Below are positions 2,896-17,084 of a stretch of 34,044 nucleotides of DNA, piece by piece. Position 1 is the stretch's first letter. Every line of letters starts with the position of its first letter. The notes below the pieces were generated by a model. It was not told the DNA's origin and made no database searches. It worked only from the letters and a program-made list of their open reading frames with translations. The translations under genes were made by a program, and so were the position numbers. The DNA comes from Actinomycetes bacterium (GTDB taxonomy: Bacteria; Actinomycetota; Actinomycetes; Streptomycetales; Streptomycetaceae): the NCBI GenBank assembly GCA_009783685.1, contig WRCZ01000004.1:1-34044 (forward strand). The letters are read 5' to 3'.

Positions 2896-4755
2896 ATGCC
2901 CGCTTCGACGACCACGCAGGACGCGGGCCGGGAGCCCACGCAACCCCCGCATACCGGCCCGGACGATTCCGCCGGGGACCGGCACCGGCTGTCCGCCCTG
3001 CAGGGCGTCTCCGCGCTGTCGCTGGACGCGCTCGCGTCGGTGGCCTACGGGCCGGAGGCGATCGTCCTGGTGCTGGCGGCTGCCGGCGCGCACGGGCTGG
3101 GTTTCACCCTGCCGGTGACGCTGAGCATCGCCGGGCTGCTGGCCTTCCTGGTGGCCTCCTACCGGCAGGTGATCGAGGCGTTCCCCGACGGCGGCGGCTC
3201 GTACGCCGTCGCCAAACGGCATCTCGGCCGCCGTACCAGCCTGGTGACGGCGGCCTCGCTGATCCTGGACTACGTGCTGAACGTGGCCGTCTCGGTGACG
3301 GCCGGCGTCGCGGCGCTCACCTCGGCGTTCCCCGCCCTGTACGGCGACCGGGTGTGGCTGTGCCTGGGCGTGCTCGCGCTGGTCACCGGCGTGAACCTGC
3401 GCGGCATCGTCGACTCCGCGAAGGCGTTCGTGGTGCCGACCGCGGTGTTCGTGGTGTCGATCCTGGCGATCATCGCGGTGGGGCTGTTCCGCGACTCCCC
3501 GGTCAGCACCGCCGCCGCAGACGGCCACGCCACGGTCCTGGCGTCGAACGCCTCCACCGTCGGCGCGCTGCTCCTGCTCAAGGCGTTCGCCTCCGGCTGC
3601 TCCGCGCTGACCGGCGTCGAGGCGGTGGCCAACGCGGTGCCGTCGTTCCGCGCGCCCGCCGTGCGCCGGGCCCAGCACACCGAGCTGGCCCTGGGCGGGC
3701 TGCTCGGCGTGATGCTCATCGGGCTGGCGGTGCTCATCGGCCGCTTCCACCTGCAGCCGGTGGCCGGCACCACCGTGCTCGCCCAGCTCGCGGATGCCTC
3801 TCTCGGCCACAACTGGGCTTTCTACGTCGTCCAGTTCGCCACGATGGTGCTGCTGGGGCTGGCCGCCAACACCTCCTTCGGCGGACTGCCCGTCCTGATG
3901 GGCCTGCTCGCCCGCGACAACTACCTGCCGCACCTGTTCGCGCTGAAGGCCGACCGCCAGGTGCATCGCTACGGCGTGCTGGCCCTGGCCGCCGTCTCCG
4001 CCGTGCTGCTGGTCGCGTCCGGCGGCGACACCAACACCCTGGTCCCGCTCTTCGCGATCGGCGTGTTCATCGGCTTCACCCTCTGCCAGGTCGGCATGGT
4101 GCGGCACTGGCGGCAGGCCAGGGTCGCCCACTGGCGGCGCAAGGCGCTGCTGAACGGGTTCGGCGCGCTGCTCACCGGTGTCGCCGCGGTCGTGGTGACC
4201 GCCACCAAGTTCACCGCGGGCGCCTGGCTGATCGTGCTGTCGGTGCCGGCGCTGGTCGCCTGCTTCGAGATGGTGCACCGCAGCTACGGCCGGATGGGCG
4301 CCGCCCTGGACCTCGGCAGGGTGCCGGCGGCGCCGCACCGGGATCGCTCGCTGGTCGTGGTGCCCGTCGCGTCCCTGTCCCGGCTGACCACGGAGGCGCT
4401 GACCGCGGCCGTGTCCCTCGGCGACGAGGTGCACGCGGTCACCGTCACGCACCCTGAGGACCGGGAGCGCACCGAGGCGCTGCACCGCGACTGGGCGCTG
4501 TGGTCCCCGGGCGTCGACCTCGTCGAACTGCCCTCCGCCCACCGCGATCTCGGCCGCCCGCTGGCCGGCTACGTGCGGGCGCTGGCCGCCGCGCACCCCG
4601 GTACCCGGATCACCGTGCTGATAGCGGAGATCGAGCCGTGCCACGCCTGGCAGCGGCTGCTGCAGAACCAGCGCGGCGCGGTCGTCGCGCACGCGGTGCG
4701 GCGCGACACCGACGCGGTGATCTGCCGGCTGCGGTTCCGGCTCAGGGCGCTCTGA
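2896..4755 (+). CDS. KimA-like APC-superfamily potassium transporter
   Basis: A 619-residue integral membrane protein with about 12 helices (residues ~35-470) and a ~150-residue cytosolic C-terminal domain of alternating strands and helices (DRSLVVVPVASLSRLTTEAL onward), resembling a universal-stress-type domain. This size and layout match Bacillus KimA (YdaO), a high-affinity K+ importer. The first helix has LSLDALASVAYGPEA, where Asp44 and Tyr51 keep the 7-residue spacing of the KimA K+-binding Asp36/Tyr43. A general amino-acid permease is the alternative. The ATG at 2896 is preferred because AGGAGA lies 6 nt upstream; a GTG at 2794 in frame would overlap the regulatory repeat. The adjacent kdp genes and the shared operator support K+ uptake. 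Confidence 0.78.
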   Translation: MPASTTTQDAGREPTQPPHTGPDDSAGDRHRLSALQGVSALSLDALASVAYGPEAIVLVLAAAGAHGLGFTLPVTLSIAGLLAFLVASYRQVIEAFPDGGGSYAVAKRHLGRRTSLVTAASLILDYVLNVAVSVTAGVAALTSAFPALYGDRVWLCLGVLALVTGVNLRGIVDSAKAFVVPTAVFVVSILAIIAVGLFRDSPVSTAAADGHATVLASNASTVGALLLLKAFASGCSALTGVEAVANAVPSFRAPAVRRAQHTELALGGLLGVMLIGLAVLIGRFHLQPVAGTTVLAQLADASLGHNWAFYVVQFATMVLLGLAANTSFGGLPVLMGLLARDNYLPHLFALKADRQVHRYGVLALAAVSAVLLVASGGDTNTLVPLFAIGVFIGFTLCQVGMVRHWRQARVAHWRRKALLNGFGALLTGVAAVVVTATKFTAGAWLIVLSVPALVACFEMVHRSYGRMGAALDLGRVPAAPHRDRSLVVVPVASLSRLTTEALTAAVSLGDEVHAVTVTHPEDRERTEALHRDWALWSPGVDLVELPSAHRDLGRPLAGYVRALAAAHPGTRITVLIAEIEPCHAWQRLLQNQRGAVVAHAVRRDTDAVICRLRFRLRAL

Positions 4756-4775
4756 GCGGCGCCCGGCCGGACGGT

Positions 4776-4825
4776 GTCAAGAAGGCGTCAGGGATGCGGA
4801 ATTCCGCGTCAGGACACCGTAAGAG
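4776..4825 (+). promoter_or_regulatory. Putative KdpE-type direct repeat and promoter for the small membrane gene
   Basis: Half-sites GTCAAGA (4776) and GTCAGGG (4787) are 11 bp apart. GTCAGGA (4808) follows 21 bp later, then TAAGAG (4820-4825) in the -10 position. The spacing is identical to the element in the kdp promoter. A second possible -10, TAGCGT at 4853-4858, would give a leaderless message starting at the ATG. Confidence 0.6.
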
Positions 4826-4865
4826 CCGGGTCCCGCGCGCGGGCGATGCTCCTAGCGTCGGAGAC

Positions 4866-5429
4866 ATGGGAAGGCGCCACAGCCAGCCACCGCTCGTCGC
4901 GGGCGGCCGGTCCTCCGGACCCGGGACGGTGCGCGACACCGCCCGCGCCCACGGCTGGCGCAGTGACCGCCGCTGGGCGATCGGATGTGCCTGCGCGGCC
5001 TTCGTCCTGGCCGAGCTCGCCGAGTGGGACACCGGCGACCTCAGCCTGCTGCACACCCTCCTCACCTGCGGCATCGCGCTGGTCGTCCTCGCCATGCTGT
5101 GGCCCGCCCAGGTGGTCGCGGGGGAGGGCTGGCTGACCGTGCGCGGGCCGCTGCGCACCCGCAGGGTGCGGACCGACGCGCTGTCCGGCATGTGGCTGAT
5201 CGGCGACCTCGCGTGCAGCCTGGTGCTGCGCGACATCCACGGCGGCCGGGCCGAGATCGACGCCGAGGTCGTCGTCGCGGATCCCGTGCTGTGGCACCTG
5301 CTGGAGAGCGGGGTGCACCGCTCTCAGGAGCGCGGCACCCTGCGCACCGGGGCCCGGGTGCTGACCGGGCTGGGCCGGCGCGTGGACGGCGAGGCCCGCG
5401 CGATCCTGCGGGCCTCCGGACTCGACTGA
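4866..5429 (+). CDS. Small two-helix membrane protein of unknown function
   Basis: I do not recognise a named family. The 187-residue product has a basic N-terminus, two hydrophobic helices (about residues 37-53 and 61-79), and then a soluble, strand-rich region (about 82-140, GEGWLTVRGPLRTRRVRTDALSGMWL...) that looks like the bacterial PH-like fold seen in small actinobacterial membrane proteins. The C-terminal ~45 residues are basic. The ATG at 4866 is chosen because the protein pattern begins after it, although its Shine-Dalgarno is poor (GGAG only 2 nt away). An ATG at 4794 is in frame but falls inside the regulatory repeat. Its promoter element suggests co-regulation with the K+ systems on both sides. 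Confidence 0.75.
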   Translation: MGRRHSQPPLVAGGRSSGPGTVRDTARAHGWRSDRRWAIGCACAAFVLAELAEWDTGDLSLLHTLLTCGIALVVLAMLWPAQVVAGEGWLTVRGPLRTRRVRTDALSGMWLIGDLACSLVLRDIHGGRAEIDAEVVVADPVLWHLLESGVHRSQERGTLRTGARVLTGLGRRVDGEARAILRASGLD

Positions 5430-5762
5430 CCGCCCCGAGCCGCGCCGCTCCCGGCCGCGGACACCCGCCCCGGGACGGCGCTGTGGCCCCCCCGCACCCG
5501 CCGCTCAGACGGTGCGGACACCCGCCCCGCGCGATCCGCCCACCCCGGGACGGCGCCGGCAGCCCGCCGCCGGCACCCCCGCACCTCCGCCCCGCCCGAC
5601 CCTGCCCGCCCCGGGACGGCGCCGGCACCCCCCGCAGCCCCACCCCCCTGCACCCGCCGCTCAGACGGTGCGGACACCCGCCCCGCGCGACCCGCCCACC
5701 GCGGGACGGCGCCGGCACCCCGCCGCCGGCACCCCCGAAGCCCCACCCTCCGCACCCGCCGC
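5430..5762. other. Non-coding stretch between convergent genes, C-rich and repetitive
   Basis: This is the gap between the convergent small membrane gene and kdpD. It is extremely C-rich on the plus strand and made largely of the direct repeats described separately. Frames that cross it are low-complexity Pro/Arg or Gly/Arg and look spurious. I see no convincing terminator hairpin. Confidence 0.7.
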
Positions 5763-5769
5763 TCAGACG
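5494..5769. repeat. Direct repeats around the 3' end of kdpD
   Basis: An 88-bp segment at 5494-5581 recurs at 5650-5737 with three mismatches and no gaps. A third, partial copy (the first 18 bp of the unit) lies at 5752-5769 and spans the real kdpD stop codon (5763-5765). The unit therefore looks like a duplicated copy of the kdpD stop region. A related CGGGACGGCGCCGGCACCCC block sits between the two full copies. Confidence 0.85.
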
Positions 5770-8348
5770 TCCTGGGCGTCCAGCCGGCCCGGCCCATCCC
5801 CGACCTGCTCGGGCGGTAGCGGTGACCCGCCGGCCGCGGGGAGGGAGACCACCATCGTCAGCCCGCCGCCGGGCGTCTCCTCGGGGGTGAGGGTGCCGTC
5901 CATGGCCTCGGTCAGGCCGCGGGACAGGGCCAGGCCCAGCCCGAGCCCGGTGGTGTTGTCGGTGTCGCCCATGCGCTGGAACGGTTCGAAGATCCGGTCG
6001 TGGTCCTCCGGCCGCAGCCCCGGCCCCTGGTCGATGACGCGCAGCTCGACGCGCTCGCCGAGGGCGCTCCCGCTGACCAGGACCTTGCCGCCGGGCGGGG
6101 TGTGCCGTACCGCGTTCGCCACCAGGTTGGCGATCACCCGCTCCAGCAGCGGCGGGTCGGCCAGGATGTCCGCGGTCTCCGCGACGCCCTGGGTGACCAC
6201 CGGCGTCCTCGTCGCCGGCAGCGTGTCGAGGGCCATCGGCAGCACTTCGGCGAGCGCGGTCGGCTGGAGGTTGAGGGTGAGCGCGCCGGCCTGCAGCCTG
6301 CTCATGTCGAGCAGGTTGTCCACCAGCCGGTTCAGCCGGACCAGCGACTCCTCGGCGGTGGCGAGCAGTTCGTCGCGGTCCTCGTCGGAGAAGCGCACCT
6401 CGCGGCTGCGCAGGCTGCTGATCGCCGCCCAGCCGCTGGCGATCGGGGTGCGCAGGTCGTGGCTGACCGCGGCCAGCAGCGCGGTGCGCATCCGGTCGGC
6501 CGCCTTGACCGGCTCCACCTCGGCCGCGGCCTCGGCCAGCCGGGCCCGCTCCAGCGCGGCGGCCACATGGCCGGCGAAGGCGACGAACACCCGGCGCTCG
6601 GAGGCGGCCAGCCGGCGCCCGCGCAGCACCAGGACGTCGTCGGGGCCGACCGGCGCGGTGACCAGGTCGGCCTTGTGCCCGCCGCCGGCCGCGGCCAGTT
6701 CGGCGTCGACGTCCGTGCGGTGCGCCAGTTCCGCCGACTCCATGCCGAACGCCTCGCGGGTGCGCTGCAGCAGCATGTCGACGCCCTGCTCGCCGCGCAG
6801 GATGCTGCCGGCCATCGAGGACAGCGTCTCGGCCTCCGCGGTCGCGTTGGCCGCCCGCCGCGAGAGCCGCAGCGAGTGGTCGACGATCGTCGCCACGGTC
6901 ACCGCGGCCATCGCGAAGACCACCAGGGCCAGGGCGTTGTTGGTCTCGCCGATGGTGAACTGGTGGATCGGCGGGATGAAGAACCAGTTCAGCAGCAGCG
7001 ACGCGGTGATCGAGGCCAGCAGCGCGGAGACCACGCCGCCGATGCACGCCACGCCCATCACCGCGAGCAGGAACAGCAGGGCGTCGGTGGTCAGGTTCAG
7101 GGTCCCGCGGGTGTGGCTGAGGATCATCGTGAGCACGATCGGCAGCACCAGGCCGGTGACCGGGCCGGCCACCTTCCGTACCCGCGACAGGCTGCTGTTC
7201 GGGGTGGGCAGCAGCCGGCCGCGGCCGGCGCGCTCGTGGGTGACCATGTGGACGTCGATGTCGCCGGACATCTCCACCGTGGTCTCGCCGACGCCCCGCC
7301 CGGTGACGAAGTGCGAGAGCCGGCCGCGCCGGCTGGTGCCCATCACCAGCTGGGTGGCGCTCTCGGCGCGCGCGAAGTCCAGCAGCGCGGAGGGCACGTG
7401 GTCGCCGACGACGGAGTGGAAGGTGCCGCCCAGCGACTCGACCAGCGCCCGCTGCTTGGCCAGCGCGGCCGGTGACGCCTCGGCCAGCCCGTCGCTGCGG
7501 GCGATGTGCACGGCGAGCAGGTCGCCGCCGGCGGACCGGTCGGCGATCCGCGCGGCGCGGCGGATCAGCGTGGTGCCCTCGGGCCCTCCGGTGAGCGCGA
7601 CCACCACCCGCTCCCGGGTCTCCCACACCCCTCCTATGCCGTGCTCCGACCGGTACTTCTGCAGCGCCTCGTCGACCCGCCCGGCCACCCACAGCAGCGC
7701 CAGCTCGCGCAGCGCGGTGAGGTTGCCGACCCGGAAGTAGTGGGACAGCGCCGCGTCGACCTTCTCCGGCGCGTAGACGTTGCCGTGCGCCATCCTGCGG
7801 CGCAGCGCGTCGGCCGGCATGTCGACCAGCTCGATCTGGTCGGCCCTGCGGACCACCTCGTCGGGCACGGTCTCGCGCTGCGGCACCCCGGTGATCTTGT
7901 GGACGACGTCGTTGAGCGACTCCAGGTGCTGGATGTTGACCGTGGTGATGACGTCGATCCCCGCGGCCAGCAGCTCGTCGATGTCCTCCCAGCGTTTGGC
8001 GTGCCGGCCGCCCGCCACGTTGGTGTGCGGCAGCTCGTCGACCAGGGCCACCTGCGGGGCGCGCTCCAGGACCGCGTCGAGGTCCATCTCGGTCAGCGTC
8101 GTGCCACGGTAGTCGCGCACCACGCGGGGGACGATCTCCAGGCCCTCCAGCATCTCCTCGGTGTGCGGCCGCCGGTGGCACTCGACGAACGCCACGACCA
8201 CGTCGGTGCCGCGGGCGGCGCGGCGCCTGCCCTCGTCGAGCATCCGGTACGTCTTGCCGACGCCGGGCGCCGCACCGAGGAACACCTTCAGCCTGCCGGG
8301 CCGTGCGTACGACGGCTGATCCGGGTCGGAGACGGCGGTGGATGCCAC
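5763..8348 (-). CDS. kdpD: KdpD sensor histidine kinase
   Basis: An 861-residue membrane sensor kinase that responds to K+ limitation and phosphorylates KdpE. Domains in order: N-terminal KdpD domain with Walker A GAAPGVGKT (residues 25-33) and the conserved VDELPHTNVAG; a universal-stress-type domain (~250-370); four membrane helices (DUF4118-like, ~395-510); a GAF-like segment; HisKA with SHDLRTPIA (phospho-acceptor His630); and HATPase_c with NAVRHTPPGG, DQGPGL and GLGLGLALSRG. The GTG at 8348 is chosen because AAGGAGG lies 7 nt upstream; an in-frame ATG at 8459 would add 37 low-complexity residues. It follows kdpC by 131 bp and is separated from its partner kdpE by the whole kdpFABC set. 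Confidence 0.95.
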   Translation of the reverse strand: MASTAVSDPDQPSYARPGRLKVFLGAAPGVGKTYRMLDEGRRRAARGTDVVVAFVECHRRPHTEEMLEGLEIVPRVVRDYRGTTLTEMDLDAVLERAPQVALVDELPHTNVAGGRHAKRWEDIDELLAAGIDVITTVNIQHLESLNDVVHKITGVPQRETVPDEVVRRADQIELVDMPADALRRRMAHGNVYAPEKVDAALSHYFRVGNLTALRELALLWVAGRVDEALQKYRSEHGIGGVWETRERVVVALTGGPEGTTLIRRAARIADRSAGGDLLAVHIARSDGLAEASPAALAKQRALVESLGGTFHSVVGDHVPSALLDFARAESATQLVMGTSRRGRLSHFVTGRGVGETTVEMSGDIDVHMVTHERAGRGRLLPTPNSSLSRVRKVAGPVTGLVLPIVLTMILSHTRGTLNLTTDALLFLLAVMGVACIGGVVSALLASITASLLLNWFFIPPIHQFTIGETNNALALVVFAMAAVTVATIVDHSLRLSRRAANATAEAETLSSMAGSILRGEQGVDMLLQRTREAFGMESAELAHRTDVDAELAAAGGGHKADLVTAPVGPDDVLVLRGRRLAASERRVFVAFAGHVAAALERARLAEAAAEVEPVKAADRMRTALLAAVSHDLRTPIASGWAAISSLRSREVRFSDEDRDELLATAEESLVRLNRLVDNLLDMSRLQAGALTLNLQPTALAEVLPMALDTLPATRTPVVTQGVAETADILADPPLLERVIANLVANAVRHTPPGGKVLVSGSALGERVELRVIDQGPGLRPEDHDRIFEPFQRMGDTDNTTGLGLGLALSRGLTEAMDGTLTPEETPGGGLTMVVSLPAAGGSPLPPEQVGDGPGRLDAQDV

Positions 8349-8355
8349 CGGGCTC

Positions 8356-8362
8356 CCTCCTT
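8356..8362 (-). promoter_or_regulatory. Ribosome binding site that sets the kdpD start
   Basis: AAGGAGG on the minus strand, 7 nt before the GTG at 8348. It is a near-perfect anti-16S match and supports this start over the ATG at 8459, where no comparable site is seen. Confidence 0.75.
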
Positions 8363-8479
8363 GCGTGAATTGACCGGACGCGCCGCCGCCCGGCCACCGC
8401 GGACGGCCGGGCCGTGGTGGCCGGGACGCTCCGCGGTGACCGGGGGCGGTCGTGCTCATGTGCGGTTGACGGACGGTGC

Positions 8480-9097
8480 CTAGCCGGCCTTGGCCAGGTC
8501 CAGGTTGAGGTTGACGACGTTGACGTAGTCCTGGCCGAGGAATCCGACGGCCCGGCTGTGGGTGTTGTCGGCCACCAGCTTGCGCACGGCGGCCGGGTCG
8601 AGCCCGCGGGCCCTGGCGACCCGGTCGACCTGCTCGTCGGCGTAGGCCTTCGAGATGTCCGGGTCGAGGCCGGAGCCGGAGGCGGTGACGGCGTCGACCG
8701 GCACGTCCTTGGGGTTGACGCCGTCGAACGCGGCGACCGCGGCCCTGCGCTCCTTGATCGTCTTGACCAGGTCGGCGTTGTTCGGGCCGAGGTTGGAGGC
8801 ACCGGAGGCCAGCGGGTCGTAGCCGCCCGCGGACGGGCGCGGCTGGAACCACTTCGGGTCCGGCTTTCCGGTGTCCTTGCCGTTCTTCATCAGGTTGAAG
8901 TTCTGGCCGATGAGGCTGGAGCCGACGACGTGGCCGTTCAGATGCACGAGCGAGCCGTTGGCCTGGTGGCTGAACGCGGTCTGCGCGATCCCGGTGACGA
9001 CCAGCGGATAGGCGATGCCGGTGATCACGGTGAGCACCAGCAGCATCCGCAGGGCGGCCAGGTGGTTGCGCACCGCGGCGGGAAGGGAACTGGGCAT
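8480..9097 (-). CDS. kdpC: KdpC subunit of the K+-transporting ATPase
   Basis: A 205-residue subunit with one N-terminal membrane helix (about residues 15-36, MLLVLTVITGIAYPLVVTGIAQ) and an extracytoplasmic domain. Family signatures are NGHVVGSSLIGQNF, PKWFQPRPSAGGYDPLASGASNLGP, AVTASGSGLDPDIS and the C-terminal VNVVNLNLDL. In the Kdp complex KdpC caps KdpA and is thought to aid K+ binding. The size is normal for the family. It starts 21 bp after kdpB and is co-transcribed with it. Confidence 0.96.
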   Translation of the reverse strand: MPSSLPAAVRNHLAALRMLLVLTVITGIAYPLVVTGIAQTAFSHQANGSLVHLNGHVVGSSLIGQNFNLMKNGKDTGKPDPKWFQPRPSAGGYDPLASGASNLGPNNADLVKTIKERRAAVAAFDGVNPKDVPVDAVTASGSGLDPDISKAYADEQVDRVARARGLDPAAVRKLVADNTHSRAVGFLGQDYVNVVNLNLDLAKAG

Positions 9098-9118: not shown

Positions 9119-11256
<2,138 letters not shown>

Positions 11257-11257
<1 letters not shown>

Positions 11258-12921
11258 CAGTGCAGACCTTCCGCGAGCGGACCCAGCGCGAGGGCGGGGA
11301 AGTAGGTGAGGCCCACGACGATCAGGATCACGCCGCTGAGCAGGCCGACGAACTGCGGCCGGTGGGTGGGCAGGGTGCCGGTGGTGACCGGGACCGGCTG
11401 CTGCCTGGCCAGCGAACCGGCCAGCGCCAGGACGAAGATCATGGGCAGGAAACGGCCGAAGAGCATGGCCAGGCCCAGCGCGGTGTTCCACCAGTCCGAC
11501 GACACGGTCAGGCCGGCGAACGCCGAACCGTTGTTGTTGGCCGCGGAGGTGAACGCGTACAGCACCTCGGAGAAGCCGTGCGGGCCGGAGTTGAGCATGT
11601 TCGCGCGCTCGCCGCGCAGCGACATGGCCGTGCCGGCGCCGATCAGGACGATCGCGGGGGTGGTGAGGATGTACAGGGAGGCGAACTTCATCTCCCGGCT
11701 GCCGAGCTTCTTGCCCAGGTACTCCGGGGTGCGGCCGACCATCAGACCGGCCACGAAGACCGTGATGACCGCGAGGATGAGGATGCCGTAGAGGCCGGAC
11801 CCGGTACCGCCGGGCGCGATCTCGCCGAGCATCATGTTGAAGATCGTCATCCCGCCGCCGCCCGGCGTGTACGAGTCGTGGAAGGAGTTGACGGCGCCGG
11901 TGGAGGTGAGGGTGGTCGACGTGGCGAACAGGGCGGACGCCCAGATGCCGAACCGCTGTTCCTTGCCCTCCATCATCCCGCCGGCCGCGTGGCCCGCGGT
12001 GCTGCTGACGCTGTGCAGCTCGTTGACGGTGACCAGGACCACCGAGGCGACCCAGATCAGGGCCATCACCGAGACGATGGCGTACCCCTGGCGCTTGTCG
12101 CCGACCATCGTGCCGAAGGTGCGCGGCAGCGAGGTGGCGATGACCAGCAGCAGGTAGATCTCCAGCCAGTTGGTGAACGCGTTGGGGTTCTCGAACGGGT
12201 GGGCGGAGTTGGCGTTGTAGAAGCCGCCGCCGTTGGTGCCGAGTTCCTTGATGACCTCCTGCGAGGCCACCGGGCCGCCGGTGATCGACTGCTTGTCGCC
12301 GACGATGGTGGAGATCTCGTGCACCCCGTGCAGGTTCTCCACCGCGCCCGCCGCGACCAGGACGATCGCGAAGACGAAGGCGATCGGCAGCAGCACCCGG
12401 ACGGTGACGCGGGTCAGGTCGACCCAGAAGTTGCCGATCCGGTCGGTGCGTTTGCGGGTGAAGCCCCGGATCAGGGCGGCCACCACCGCGATGCCGACGG
12501 CTGCGGACACGAAGTTCTGCACCGCCAGGCCGGCCATCTGCACGAGGTGGCCCATGGTCGTCTCGCCCGAGTACGACTGCCAGTTGGTGTTGGTCACGAA
12601 GGACGCGGCGGTGTTGAAGGCGGTCCCCGGCGGAACCGCCTTCATCCCGATCGCCAGCAGCAGATGGCTCTGCAACCGCTGGAAGGCGTACAGGAAGATC
12701 ACGGAGACCGCGGAGAACGCCAGGACGCTGCGCAGGTAGACCGGCCAGCGCTGGTCCACGTCGGCGTTGACGCCGCCGAGCCGGTAGAGGAAGCGCTCGG
12801 CACGCAGGTGCTTGGGCGTGGTCAGGACGTGGGCGATGTAGTCGCCCAGTGGCCGGTACGAGAGGGCCAGCGCGCCGATCAGCGCGAGGGCCTGGAGCCA
12901 GCCGGCGAGGGTGTCGTTCAC
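11257..12921 (-). CDS. kdpA: KdpA K+-translocating subunit
   Basis: A 554-residue, about 10-helix membrane protein that forms the selective K+ pore of the Kdp pump. Selectivity-filter segments are visible: [11 protein letters not shown] (about residue 110), [19 protein letters not shown] (about 228) and [13 protein letters not shown] (about 460). Length matches the family. The GTG at 12921 is chosen because it shares one base with the kdpF stop (TAGTG) and the protein begins with the expected short periplasmic segment and first helix. It belongs to the kdp operon and is translationally coupled at both ends. Confidence 0.97.
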
Positions 12922-13152: not shown

Positions 13153-13203
13153 TCCGCTAGCAAACCCCTGCCCAGAGCCTTGGCCTTACCGCGTTAGCGG
13201 AGC
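13151..13203. repeat. 9-bp inverted repeat straddling the kdp start region
   Basis: GCTCCGCTA at 13151-13159 and its exact reverse complement TAGCGGAGC at 13195-13203, with 35 bp between. The right arm contains the proposed kdp -10. It could be a second regulator site or an RNA stem. Confidence 0.5.
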
Positions 13204-13241
13204 CCTGACGCCACCGGACGGGCTATTGACGCTGCCTTGAC
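13191..13241 (-). promoter_or_regulatory. Putative KdpE-type direct repeat and promoter of the kdp operon
   Basis: Read on the minus strand: GTCAAGG starts at 13241, GTCAATA at 13230 (11 bp on) and GTCAGGG at 13209 (21 bp on). TAACGC begins at 13196 in the -10 position. The hexamer at the -35 position is GTCCGG, far from TTGACA, as expected of an activator-dependent promoter with tandem half-sites just upstream. OmpR/KdpE-family regulators bind such direct repeats. Confidence 0.65.
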
Positions 13242-13315
13242 GGCGCAATCGGCCTCACGGCGTACGTCCCCAGGTGGAAGGCGTGAACGCGGCGTTACCG
13301 CTGCCCGCGGGACGC

Positions 13316-13366
13316 GTCAAGGACCCGTCAATGTGATGTCGGGCCCTGCCAGGAACGCGTTAACAC
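13316..13366 (+). promoter_or_regulatory. Putative KdpE-type direct repeat and promoter of kdpE
   Basis: GTCAAGG (13316), GTCAATG (13327) and GCCAGGA (13348) have the same 11 and 21 bp spacing as the kdp element. TAACAC at 13361-13366 takes the -10 position and GTCGGG the -35 position. A weaker pair, GTGAACG/GTTACCG, lies upstream at 13283/13294. This suggests kdpE autoregulation. Confidence 0.6.
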
Positions 13367-13488: not shown

Positions 13489-14175
13489 GTGAAGCGGGTG
13501 CTCGTCGTCGAGGACGATCCGCCCATGCTCAAGGCCCTGGGCATCGGGCTGCGCGCCTTCGACTTCTCGGTCGTGGCCGCGTCGGACGCCGGGACCGCGC
13601 TGGAACTGGCGGCCCGCAGCGCCCCCGAGGCGGTGCTGCTCGACCTCGGCCTGCCCGATCTCGACGGCCTCGACGTGCTGCGCTCGTTGCGCGCCTGGGG
13701 CGACGTGCCCGTCGTGGTGGTGTCCGGTCGCGCCGGCATCGCCACCCGCGTCGAGGCGCTCGACGCGGGCGCCGACGACTTCGTCACCAAGCCCTTCTCC
13801 ATCGACGAACTCGCCGCCCGGCTGCGCGCCGTGCTGCGCAGGCCGGCCGCGCTGCACCCGCCGGAGCAGGTCGTCCTCGGCCGCTACACGATCGACCTCG
13901 GCGCGTACGCGATCAGCCGCACCGACGGGAGGTCCGGCGACCCGGTACACCTCACGCCCACGGAATGGCGCCTGCTCTCGCTGCTGCTGCGCAACCCCGA
14001 CCGCCTGGTCACCGGGCGTGAGCTGCTGTCCGAGGTGTGGGGCAGTGACCATGTGCGCAACACCAATTACCTGCGCGTGTTCATGGCCGGCCTGCGCCGC
14101 AAGCTCGAACCCGATCCGGCGACCCCCCGCCACCTGCTCACCGAGCCGGGTCTCGGGTACCGTTTCCAGCCTTGA
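13489..14175 (+). CDS. kdpE: KdpE response regulator
   Basis: A 228-residue OmpR-family regulator. The receiver domain has acidic pocket Glu8-Asp9-Asp10, phosphorylated Asp52 (LLDLGLPDLDG), Ser79 and Lys101 (TKPF). The C-terminal winged helix carries HLTPTEWRLLSLLLRNPDRL and ends with the typical LLTEPGLGYRF. It activates kdp expression when phosphorylated by KdpD. The GTG at 13489 is chosen because AAGGAG lies 7 nt upstream and the receiver domain starts at once. The gene is divergent from kdpFABCD, unlike the common kdpDE order, so regulator and sensor come from different promoters that share one type of operator. Confidence 0.93.
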   Translation: MKRVLVVEDDPPMLKALGIGLRAFDFSVVAASDAGTALELAARSAPEAVLLDLGLPDLDGLDVLRSLRAWGDVPVVVVSGRAGIATRVEALDAGADDFVTKPFSIDELAARLRAVLRRPAALHPPEQVVLGRYTIDLGAYAISRTDGRSGDPVHLTPTEWRLLSLLLRNPDRLVTGRELLSEVWGSDHVRNTNYLRVFMAGLRRKLEPDPATPRHLLTEPGLGYRFQP

Positions 14176-14366: not shown

Positions 14367-15911
14367 ATGCGCGCCGTCGGGACGATCCTTTTCCTGGTGG
14401 TTCTGGCCACCGCGGTGGCCACCTTCGCCCGGCGATGGCGGATCCCCGCACCGTCCCTGCTGGTGCTGGCCGGCCTCGGGGTGGCGCTGATACCCGGCAC
14501 CCCGGCCCTGCACGTCCCGCCGCACACCATCGCCCTGGTCGTGCTGCCGCCGCTGCTGTACGCCTCCGCCGAGGAACTGTCGCTACGGGACCTCAAACAG
14601 GTGTGGCGCCCGGTGACCGTGCTGGCCTTCGGCCTGGTGCTCGCCTCGGCCGCGGCCGTCGGCGCGATCGTGATGGCGATCACCCCGCTGCCCGCGTCCA
14701 TGGCCTTCGTGCTCGGCGCGGTGCTGGCCAGTACCGACCCGGTGGCGGTCACCGCGCTGGGGCGGCGGCTGTCGCTGCCCGGCCGGGTCCAGGTGCTGGT
14801 GCAGGCCGAGAGCCTCTTCAACGACGCGACGTCGCTGGTGCTGTTCAAGGTGGCCGTCGGCATCGCCGTCGCCTCCAGCACCGTCCACTGGCCCATGGCC
14901 GTCGGCCAGTTCGCGCTGCTGGCCGGCGGCGGCACCGCCGTCGGCGCGGTGACGGCCGGCCTGGTCGCGCTGATCCGCCGGCGGACCACCGACCCCGTGC
15001 TGGACACCGTGATCGCGCTCGTCACCCCCTACGCCGCCTACGTCCTCGCCGAGTCGGCGCACACCTCGGGCGTCACCGCGGTGGTCGTCGCGGGCGTGCT
15101 GCTCGGCCGGTCCGGCCACCGGCTCAGCGACGCGCGGATCCGGCTGCAGGTGCACGCGGTCTACGCGGTCGTGGTGTTCCTGCTGGAGAGCGTCGTGTTC
15201 AGCATCGTCGGCCTCGAACTGCCCGCACTGGTCCGGGACCTGCCGGCCGACACCGGCAAGTGGCCGCTGCAGGCCGCCGTCATCGCCGTGGCGCTGCTCG
15301 GCATCCGCATCCTGTGGATGCTCCCGCTGGCCGCGGTGGCCAGACCGCGCCGCGACGGGCCGTCGTGGCGGACGGCCGCCGTGGTCACCTGGGCCGGCAC
15401 CCGCGGGGTGATGCCGCTGGCCGCCGCGCTGTCGATCCCGCTGGTCGCCGACAGCGGGCACCCGCTGCCCGGGCGCGAACTCGTGCTGGTGCTGACCACC
15501 GCGGTGGTGGTGCTCACCCTGGTCGTCCAGGGGCTGACGCTGGGCCCGGTGGTGAACCGCTCGGGCCTCGCCCTGGAGCCCGAGCACACCGCCAAGGAGG
15601 AGCTGCACGCCCGCGACGCCCTGACCCGCGCCGCGCTGGACCACCTGGACCAGCTCACCGACCTGGAGACCGTCCCGGAGGCCACCCTCACGCGCATGCA
15701 GCGCAACCTGAGCGCCCGCCTCGACGACGAGAGCGGCGGCCCGCCGGCCGACTCGGCCGACGCCGCCTACCGCGACCTGCGCCACGAGATCATCGCGGTG
15801 CAGAACACCGAACTGCGGCGCCTGTACGACGACCACGAGATCAGCGACACCACCCGGCGGCGGCTGCAGACCGACCTGGACCGCGAGGACTCGGCGCTCG
15901 GCGAGCGCTGA
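14367..15911 (+). CDS. CPA1-family Na+/H+ antiporter
   Basis: A 514-residue protein with about 12 membrane helices (residues 1-~400) and a ~110-residue charged cytosolic tail rich in Asp, Glu and Arg. Family signatures are LASTDPVAVTALG (Asp124) and AESLFNDATSLVLF, whose Asn152-Asp153 pair marks CPA1 exchangers, usually electroneutral Na+(K+)/H+ antiport at the cell membrane. The ATG at 14367 has AGGAG 9 nt upstream; an in-frame GTG at 14325 lacks one. It lies downstream of kdpE on the same strand, 191 bp away, and probably contributes to cation and pH balance with the K+ importers. Confidence 0.92.
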   Translation: MRAVGTILFLVVLATAVATFARRWRIPAPSLLVLAGLGVALIPGTPALHVPPHTIALVVLPPLLYASAEELSLRDLKQVWRPVTVLAFGLVLASAAAVGAIVMAITPLPASMAFVLGAVLASTDPVAVTALGRRLSLPGRVQVLVQAESLFNDATSLVLFKVAVGIAVASSTVHWPMAVGQFALLAGGGTAVGAVTAGLVALIRRRTTDPVLDTVIALVTPYAAYVLAESAHTSGVTAVVVAGVLLGRSGHRLSDARIRLQVHAVYAVVVFLLESVVFSIVGLELPALVRDLPADTGKWPLQAAVIAVALLGIRILWMLPLAAVARPRRDGPSWRTAAVVTWAGTRGVMPLAAALSIPLVADSGHPLPGRELVLVLTTAVVVLTLVVQGLTLGPVVNRSGLALEPEHTAKEELHARDALTRAALDHLDQLTDLETVPEATLTRMQRNLSARLDDESGGPPADSADAAYRDLRHEIIAVQNTELRRLYDDHEISDTTRRRLQTDLDREDSALGER

Positions 15912-16026: not shown

Positions 16027-16055
16027 TTGACATGACGGATTCTTGACGCTTAACT
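16027..16055 (+). promoter_or_regulatory. Putative promoter for the GH114-like gene
   Basis: TTGACA at 16027-16032 is followed after 17 bp by TTAACT (16050-16055). This is a good sigma-70-type match 145 bp upstream of the ATG at 16200. A 7-bp hairpin (ACGCCGG/CCGGCGT, 16064-16086) would lie at the very 5' end of the transcript. Confidence 0.45.
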
Positions 16056-16199: not shown

Positions 16200-17084
16200 A
16201 TGCGCCTTCGCGTCCGTTCCGCTCGCGTCACCGCTCTGGCCGCCCTCGCGGCCGCCGCCGTCGCCGTACCGCTGGTCCTCGTCGACCGCGCCGGCGCCGC
16301 CCCCACCGCACCGCGCGCCCACACCCCGGCCGCCGCGCCCGCCTCCCACCGGGCGGCCGCGGCGCCGGCGGCGACCGTGGCACTGCCGCCGGCCCACGCC
16401 GGCTTCGACTACCAGATCGGCGGCGCCTACACCCCGCCGGCCGGCGTGCAGGTGGTCAGCCGGGACCACGACGACCCGCCGGCCGCCGGCCTGTACAACA
16501 TCTGCTACGTCAACGCCTTCCAGGTCCAGCCGGGCGCCGAGGGCGACTGGGACGCCGACCTGCTGCTGCGTGACGCGAGCGGGAAGGTCGTCGTCGACCA
16601 GGACTGGGGAGAGGCGCTGCTCGACGTGAGCACCGCCGCCAAACGGACCCGGATCGCCGACAAGGTCGGCGCCTGGATCGACCAGTGCGCGGCCAAGGGC
16701 TACCAGGCCGTCGAGCCGGACAACTACGACAGCTACAGCCGGTCCAAGAAGCTGCTGACCCCCGCCGAGGCCGAGGCGTACATCGGGCTGCTGTCCGCGC
16801 ACGCGCACTCCAAGGGCCTGGCCATCGCCCAGAAGAACACCGTGGAGCTGGCCGGCGACCGCACCGCCAACGGCCTGGACTTCGCGGTCGCCGAGGAGTG
16901 CGGCACGTACAACGAATGCGGCGACTACACCGCCGCGTTCGGCGATCACGTGATCGTCATCGAGTACACGGCCAAGGGGCTCACCAAGGCGTGCTCCGGC
17001 TGGGGCGACCAGCTGAGCATCGTCCGCCGCGACCGCGACGTGTCCCCCGCCGGCAGCTCAGGGTACGTGCGGAAGACGTGCTGA
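16200..17084 (+). CDS. Secreted GH114-like endo-alpha-1,4-polygalactosaminidase
   Basis: A 294-residue exported protein. An Ala-rich signal peptide (residues 1-~33, cleavage near GAA-PTA) and an Ala/Pro linker precede a domain with the GH114/spherulin-4-like pattern: FDYQIGGAYTPPAGVQVVSRD, YNICYVNAFQ, and AVEPDNYDSY with the acidic pair Glu172 and Asp174 at the expected catalytic strand. Six cysteines remain in the mature part, suggesting three disulfides. Family members hydrolyse alpha-1,4-galactosaminogalactan-like polymers. The ATG at 16200 has CAGGAG 7 nt upstream. It stands alone between the cation genes and the sugar operon; its natural substrate here is inferred only. Confidence 0.82.
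   Translation: MRLRVRSARVTALAALAAAAVAVPLVLVDRAGAAPTAPRAHTPAAAPASHRAAAAPAATVALPPAHAGFDYQIGGAYTPPAGVQVVSRDHDDPPAAGLYNICYVNAFQVQPGAEGDWDADLLLRDASGKVVVDQDWGEALLDVSTAAKRTRIADKVGAWIDQCAAKGYQAVEPDNYDSYSRSKKLLTPAEAEAYIGLLSAHAHSKGLAIAQKNTVELAGDRTANGLDFAVAEECGTYNECGDYTAAFGDHVIVIEYTAKGLTKACSGWGDQLSIVRRDRDVSPAGSSGYVRKTC

Follow-up and report, generated by a model that had tools for sequence, protein, structure and literature searches.

ORF187, a candidate KdpE-regulated membrane protein of a potassium-uptake island in Streptomycetaceae

ORF187, an unnamed small membrane protein of Streptomyces-like soil bacteria, is a promising candidate for an accessory role in potassium uptake. Its gene lies among K+ genes in the 34,044-nucleotide stretch of an actinomycete genome analysed here (contig WRCZ01000004.1, hereafter the window). 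Its co-regulation with K+ uptake, which an earlier note on this DNA had proposed on slimmer grounds, is well supported at the sequence level by linkage of 51 of 66 relatives to K+ genes, by an operator common to these genes and by the fit of a footprinted KdpE site. To the more specific reading, that the KdpDE regulon includes ORF187 as a K+-starvation protein, induced by KdpE and serving as a membrane accessory of K+ uptake, we give an even chance.

The ORF187 gene and its linkage to potassium genes

ORF187 occupies positions 4866-5429 of the forward strand, with an ATG start at 4866 and the stop codon at 5427-5429, and encodes a predicted two-helix membrane protein of 187 residues with a bPH_6-like region. 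The GC content at codon positions 1, 2 and 3 (0.76, 0.57 and 0.95) and the dN/dS ratios against two relatives, 0.43 (0.206/0.479) and 0.53 (0.219/0.413), indicate a coding and constrained gene, in agreement with the gene call of the earlier note. Within the family Streptomycetaceae it occurs in at least 130 of 394 genomes, its own included, and at least 3 of the 396 genomes in a sample of the phylum matched it, namely the window's own and two more of the same family; with up to 8 candidates scored per genome, both counts are lower bounds. A plasmid search returned relatives in three records, all from Streptomyces, and a viral origin was rejected after three single-protein queries returned no relative from viral contigs. 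Comparison with Pfam and NCBIfam revealed no resemblance to KdpF, KdpA, KdpB or KdpC, and, given this lack of a family match, ORF187 was rejected as a subunit of Kdp or of a known transporter. Rfam, searched at the gathering threshold, returned nothing for the window, and a riboswitch or other known RNA element was accordingly rejected. In the portion considered of a study on Streptomyces orphan proteins (PMC13118837), kdpD and kdpE appear solely in company with an OB-fold protein and trkA.

The gene is preceded by kimA (2896-4755, forward strand), encoding a KimA-type K+ transporter that matches the KimA structure 6s3k with an E-value of 3.2e-115 and no other PDB entry below 0.001. On the reverse strand beyond ORF187 lie kdpD (5763-8459), kdpC (8480-9097), kdpB (9119-11257, with the start placed at the ATG of MSSPTT) and kdpA (11257-12921), followed on the forward strand by kdpE (13489-14175), the gene of an OmpR-family response regulator. 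KdpA, KdpB and KdpC pass their curated NCBIfam models. KdpD (483.5 of 1123 bits) and KdpE (206.9 of 325 bits) score below the respective cut-offs but still have KdpD and KdpE as their best models, and the best PDB chain for the latter is KdpE 4kny (E 4.7e-59). The flanks described by the earlier note, a KimA-like transporter and kdpD, were therefore recovered. The spacer between ORF187 and kdpD (5500-5770) holds imperfect GC-rich repeated stretches (CCGCTCAGACGGTGCGGACACCC occurs twice) resembling the 3' end of kdpD; a tandem repeat finder scored nothing between the two genes.

Gene neighbourhoods were compared for 66 relatives, drawn from 60 stretches (mostly of 20 kb) around the best 62 of at least 150 places, together with two of the three plasmid stretches; the window, a short contig (G138:C155) and a second, partial ORF187 copy on one stretch (L055, 777-1133) were left out. 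On the same stretch as the relative we found kdpA, kdpB or kdpC in 32 cases and KimA (at least 60% identity) in 26, one or the other in 43, and one of these or KdpD in 51, at distances of up to 12 kb. KimA lies within 1 kb of 15 relatives, always divergently oriented, and KdpD within 1 kb of nine. For the remaining 15 relatives no tested K+ gene was found in the vicinity, an upper bound since some of these stretches stop early at a contig end. Chance linkage is estimated at well under 1% per stretch, because kdp and kimA make up a few kb of some 9 Mb. An association of orthologues with K+ genes, whose absence the earlier note had listed among its grounds for refutation, is thus present. One kdp locus is unlike the others seen, with KdpB, KdpC, KdpA (48% identity) and ORF187 on the same strand (L063, 4660-10144).

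At the level of whole genomes, KdpA is present in at least 353 of the 394 family genomes, and lists compared by hand place it in 127 of 130 genomes with ORF187 versus 226 of 264 in which ORF187 was not detected, a comparison that is no clean test because the genomes are related. The presence of kdp in those 226 genomes implies that ORF187 is not a needed part of the pump.

A four-repeat operator and its probable regulator

Upstream of ORF187, at 4773-4827 on the forward strand, lies a candidate KdpE operator composed of two pairs of repeats with 11-bp phasing, four repeats in all, whose GTCA/GTAA cores start at 4776, 4787, 4808 and 4819. By pattern and matrix, the same operator was located upstream of kimA (2780-2834, forward, its short box carrying one mismatch), of kdpF/kdpA (13190-13244, reverse) and of kdpE (13281-13335, forward). 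With at most one mismatch, the short box GTCAAGNNNNCGTCA occurs five times in the window (2783, 4776, 13227 on the minus strand, 13316, and 16033 on the minus strand) versus 0.57 expected, a count reached by none of 100 shuffles, which bears out the promoter element common to ORF187 and kdp that had been proposed earlier. A looser pattern, GTGTCAN5GCGTCA with two mismatches, was not above chance in the window (7 versus 5.1 expected; 26 of 100 shuffles reach 7). Of six exact sites in the host genome, which is 71.5% complete, four lie within the 34-kb window, versus one site for the reversed control pattern; the two outside it are on contigs C10 and C36 (L098 and L099). The fifth box of the window, also exact (16033-16047, minus strand), stands between a Na+/H+ antiporter gene ending at 15911 and an ORF that possibly starts near 16201, and may add one of these two to the regulon.

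A 55-bp matrix trained on the promoters of 45 relatives, with the window left out, gave its best distinct scores in the window at ORF187 (25.3), kdpF (17.6), KimA (16.4) and kdpE (13.2), the next unrelated place scoring 9.5. Control scores of 9.3 (95%) and 18.4 (99%) were taken from 1632 pieces drawn at random from these stretches, operators possibly among them. Among 24 regions upstream of kdpA, the window's included, 23 score above the 95% level and 19 above the 99% level, with the operators 324-408 bp before the kdpA match; the single miss is L063, where kdpB and kdpC precede kdpA and the region upstream of kdpA therefore need not hold a promoter. Upstream of KimA, all 20 regions score above the 95% level and 10 of them also above the 99% level, 16 of the 20 lying within 1 kb of an ORF187 copy and four at 2.5-5 kb. 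When each relative was left out in turn and near-copies were dropped, the 99% score was reached by 53 of the 66 relatives (41 of the 51 with linkage to K+ genes, 12 of the 15 lacking it) and missed by 13, and five of the 15 KimA-divergent copies fell below even the 95% score. In 26 other genomes the exact short box shows just a mild excess (112 sites versus 71 for the reversed control), so that one box alone is not specific. The four of these genomes that belong to the window's own genus contain 22 sites versus six for the control; inspected by hand, six of these sites precede a kdpA (five) or an ORF187 relative (one) by at most 0.35 kb.

Between operator and gene, a -10 box TAGCGT (4853-4858, forward strand) is contained in CCTAGCGTC (4851-4859). 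Aligning the promoters of the relatives on whichever site close to the start best fitted CCTA[GC][GC]GTC, we found at least seven of nine positions matching in 59 of 67 rows, the window included, and all nine in 29; in these uncontrolled counts some of the seven-of-nine matches are chance-like. It begins 14-15 nt before the start codon in 44 of the 59 rows. As the start codon of ORF187 comes 7 nt after the -10 box, its mRNA is probably leaderless.

With regard to the regulator, the operator is common to kdpF and kdpE and resembles a mapped KdpE site, and ORF187 very probably belongs to the KdpE regulon. In Mycobacterium smegmatis, a 22-bp KdpE site has been mapped by footprint and EMSA (PMC5401905, as excerpted). 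This site fits, in register, a matrix built from 11 of the 24 kdpF operators, with one of 20000 shuffles as good, and also the ORF187 matrix, with 0.35% of shuffles as good. In agreement with this, the half-sites of Escherichia coli KdpE are 6-bp repeats 5 bp apart and have the same 11-bp period (PMC3264566, as excerpted). The mycobacterial regulon differs in that the target described in the excerpted text is kdpFABC and that binding of KdpE to the kdpDE promoter was not seen there, so the operator at kdpE in the window may not act alike; unlike that system, the window also carries the operator at kimA, kdpE and a new membrane protein, and with a second pair of repeats. We consider it very improbable that the operator serves a different OmpR-family regulator, with an indirect link to K+. 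Such regulators can have the same 11-bp period, as illustrated by M. tuberculosis PhoP, whose 7-bp repeats are set 4 bp apart in the excerpted description, and the KdpE of the window does score below its NCBIfam cut-off; against this, the element marks kdpF, kdpE and KimA, four of the six exact genomic sites are in the window, the footprinted KdpE site and the E. coli period agree with it, and both the best model and the best PDB chain of the response regulator are KdpE. On Streptomyces itself, a 2023 review, in the part considered, records no analysis of KdpDE in any model species and describes none of the K+ transporters listed for S. venezuelae as characterised (PMC10117811). A paper on two-component systems of S. 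coelicolor names KdpE once, in a table (PMC9739842), and our literature search, whose coverage leaves out most subscription journals, returned no paper on a Streptomyces KdpE site.

Membrane topology and the bPH_6-like region

The two helices claimed by the earlier note are reflected in the averaged profile of 43 sequences, the window's included, where 19-residue Kyte-Doolittle values have peaks around residues 43 and 73, of 1.46 and 1.64 respectively. By alignment and hydropathy, the two predicted membrane helices (4971-5105, codons 36-80) are joined by a nearly invariant turn, D53/G57/L59/R63, and in the family profile an Arg follows the second hydrophobic stretch. The turn, this Arg and the positive-inside rule suggest that both ends of the protein are cytosolic. 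Ten residues are invariant in the 43-row alignment: P80, T103, L106, D123, G126, W143, G157, L159, G162 and G185. Behind the helices follow a region of which the first part aligns weakly with bPH_6 in profile comparison (5106-5306, codons 81-147) and a conserved C-terminal region, RGTLRxG...ASGL (5307-5426, codons 148-187), which is helical in low-confidence AlphaFold models.

A PH-like fold, the other structural claim of the earlier note, is moderately supported by profile comparison, at scores that do not place the protein within the bPH_6 family. At E-values up to 1, neither Pfam nor NCBIfam returned a match for the window protein, and a separate scan gave it 13.3 bits to bPH_6 (PF10756), under the cut-off. 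Even so, bPH_6 is the most frequent Pfam match of the family (9 of 43 sequences, best E 0.00098), with none of the 43 sequences reaching the curated cut-off of 22 bits and the best relative at 19.5, and in four of ten relatives scanned separately the match begins directly after helix 2. Aligning the family by hhalign with 58 diverse bPH_6 rows gave a score of 34.3 (P 1.9e-4, probability 47.6%), compared with at most 26.7 for 50 column shuffles and 16.2 for the reversed alignment; with 30 bPH_6 rows the match was weak, at a score of 23.6 and a probability of 4.7%, where 20 shuffles reached no more than 16.3. Since the alignment covers only 46 columns, we term ORF187 bPH_6-like and not a member. 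AlphaFold models from alignments of two rows each have pLDDT values of 52.6 and 57.4. The order and register of helices followed by a PH-like region fit bPH_6 proteins at the level of these sub-cut-off sequence matches. Solved structures gave the family profile only two matches, at E 0.91 and 1, and the BilA-type and multi-ubiquitin proteins behind them are not credible as structural relatives.

The two-helix PH proteins of bPH_6 in Actinomycetota, also called Cfp-6, share with ORF187 two hydrophobic stretches directly before the PH-like region and the motif P-[RK]-V-x-A...L-x-V. ORF187 differs from them in its sub-cut-off scores, in the alignment of only the first part of the domain and in its extra conserved C-terminal region, and an ordinary bPH_6 protein is encoded by a separate gene of the host genome (G000:C311). 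The bacterial PH families PF08000 and DUF304 likewise comprise PH-like domains, but neither belongs to the 18 families for which at least one of the 43 sequences gave a match of E 1 or better.

Two branches and the possible partners of ORF187

In a quick tree of 67 rows, all 15 KimA-divergent copies fall in one branch of 23 rows (SH-aLRT 98), together with four rows labelled kdp and four others. The KimA-divergent label requires four changes on the tree versus 13.7 when shuffled, and none of 500 shuffles needed as few; the kdp label is scattered, with 15 changes versus 19.9. The other branch, of 44 rows, consists of the window, 20 rows labelled kdp and 23 others. Four genomes (G191, G320, G325 and G297) contain one copy of each branch; two paralogues, one per branch, occur on a single stretch in L056, L059, L061 and L071. 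The window copy is in tandem with KimA, yet belongs to the branch without KimA-divergent copies. Its nearest relatives are L052, L053 and L002, the last on a contig as long as that of L052 and probably the same record; in these PfkB adjoins ORF187, where the window has KimA between PfkB and ORF187, and kdpD is next door in all of them as in the window. As PfkB takes the place of KimA but kdpD is kept, the older tie of the window copy seems to be to kdpD.

In the mechanism that we propose, the regulatory steps are well supported by sequence, as distinct from experiment: at low K+, KdpD would activate KdpE, which would bind the two pairs of 11-bp-spaced CGTCA/CGTAA repeats and switch on the leaderless ORF187 promoter together with kdpFABC, kdpE and kimA. 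The product would be anchored in the membrane by its pair of helices, its N and C termini both cytosolic, as the positive-inside rule supports, and its cytosolic part, with moderate support, would comprise the bPH_6-like start and then the conserved, probably helical tail. Through the bPH_6-like domain it may bind or oligomerise at a K+ uptake protein and tune its activity, the KimA-divergent branch perhaps acting on KimA and the window's branch on KdpFABC or KdpD. That a K+ uptake protein or KdpD is the direct target of ORF187 we hold to be slightly favoured; either of the roles raised by the earlier note, transporter modulation or envelope sensing, may apply.

Two other accounts share the KdpE control of this mechanism and differ in the target. 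ORF187 might act on the membrane or envelope at low K+ or upon osmotic change and never on a transporter, which we regard as rather unlikely: the operator is kept in 12 of the 15 relatives without tested K+ genes on their stretch, and YozO under sigma-W provides a known case of envelope control over a bacterial PH protein (PMC2817789, as excerpted), but the gathering of the KimA-divergent copies in one branch and the nine relatives with KdpD within 1 kb suggest a specific partner. Such a partner could be the sensor alone, the PH-like part binding KdpD and setting its response threshold by feedback. The adjoining kdpD in the window and in L052, L053 and L002, where KimA does not separate PfkB from ORF187, is in line with this, as is the operator of ORF187 itself, which feedback would require; many copies of the KimA-divergent branch, however, have no KdpD on their stretch, and we judge this account improbable. 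Returning to direct action on K+ uptake, we put forward tentatively, as doubtful rather than probable, that ORF187 founds a family of PH-domain-like regulators of K+ uptake, KdpE-induced and leaderless, with branches for KimA and for Kdp/KdpD, that would adjust uptake post-transcriptionally.

Membrane-bound members of the bacterial PH families PF08000 and DUF304 have been proposed to oligomerise, and the same paper of 2010, in the part considered, describes the physiological functions of bacterial PH domains as not understood (PMC2817789). If the proposal holds, a K+-uptake partner would supply a physiological function for the PH-like ORF187 family. For the Streptomycetaceae, the analysis yields a candidate KdpE operator and a probable regulon that includes KimA, and ties to this candidate regulon, by sequence, a conserved membrane protein that had no name.
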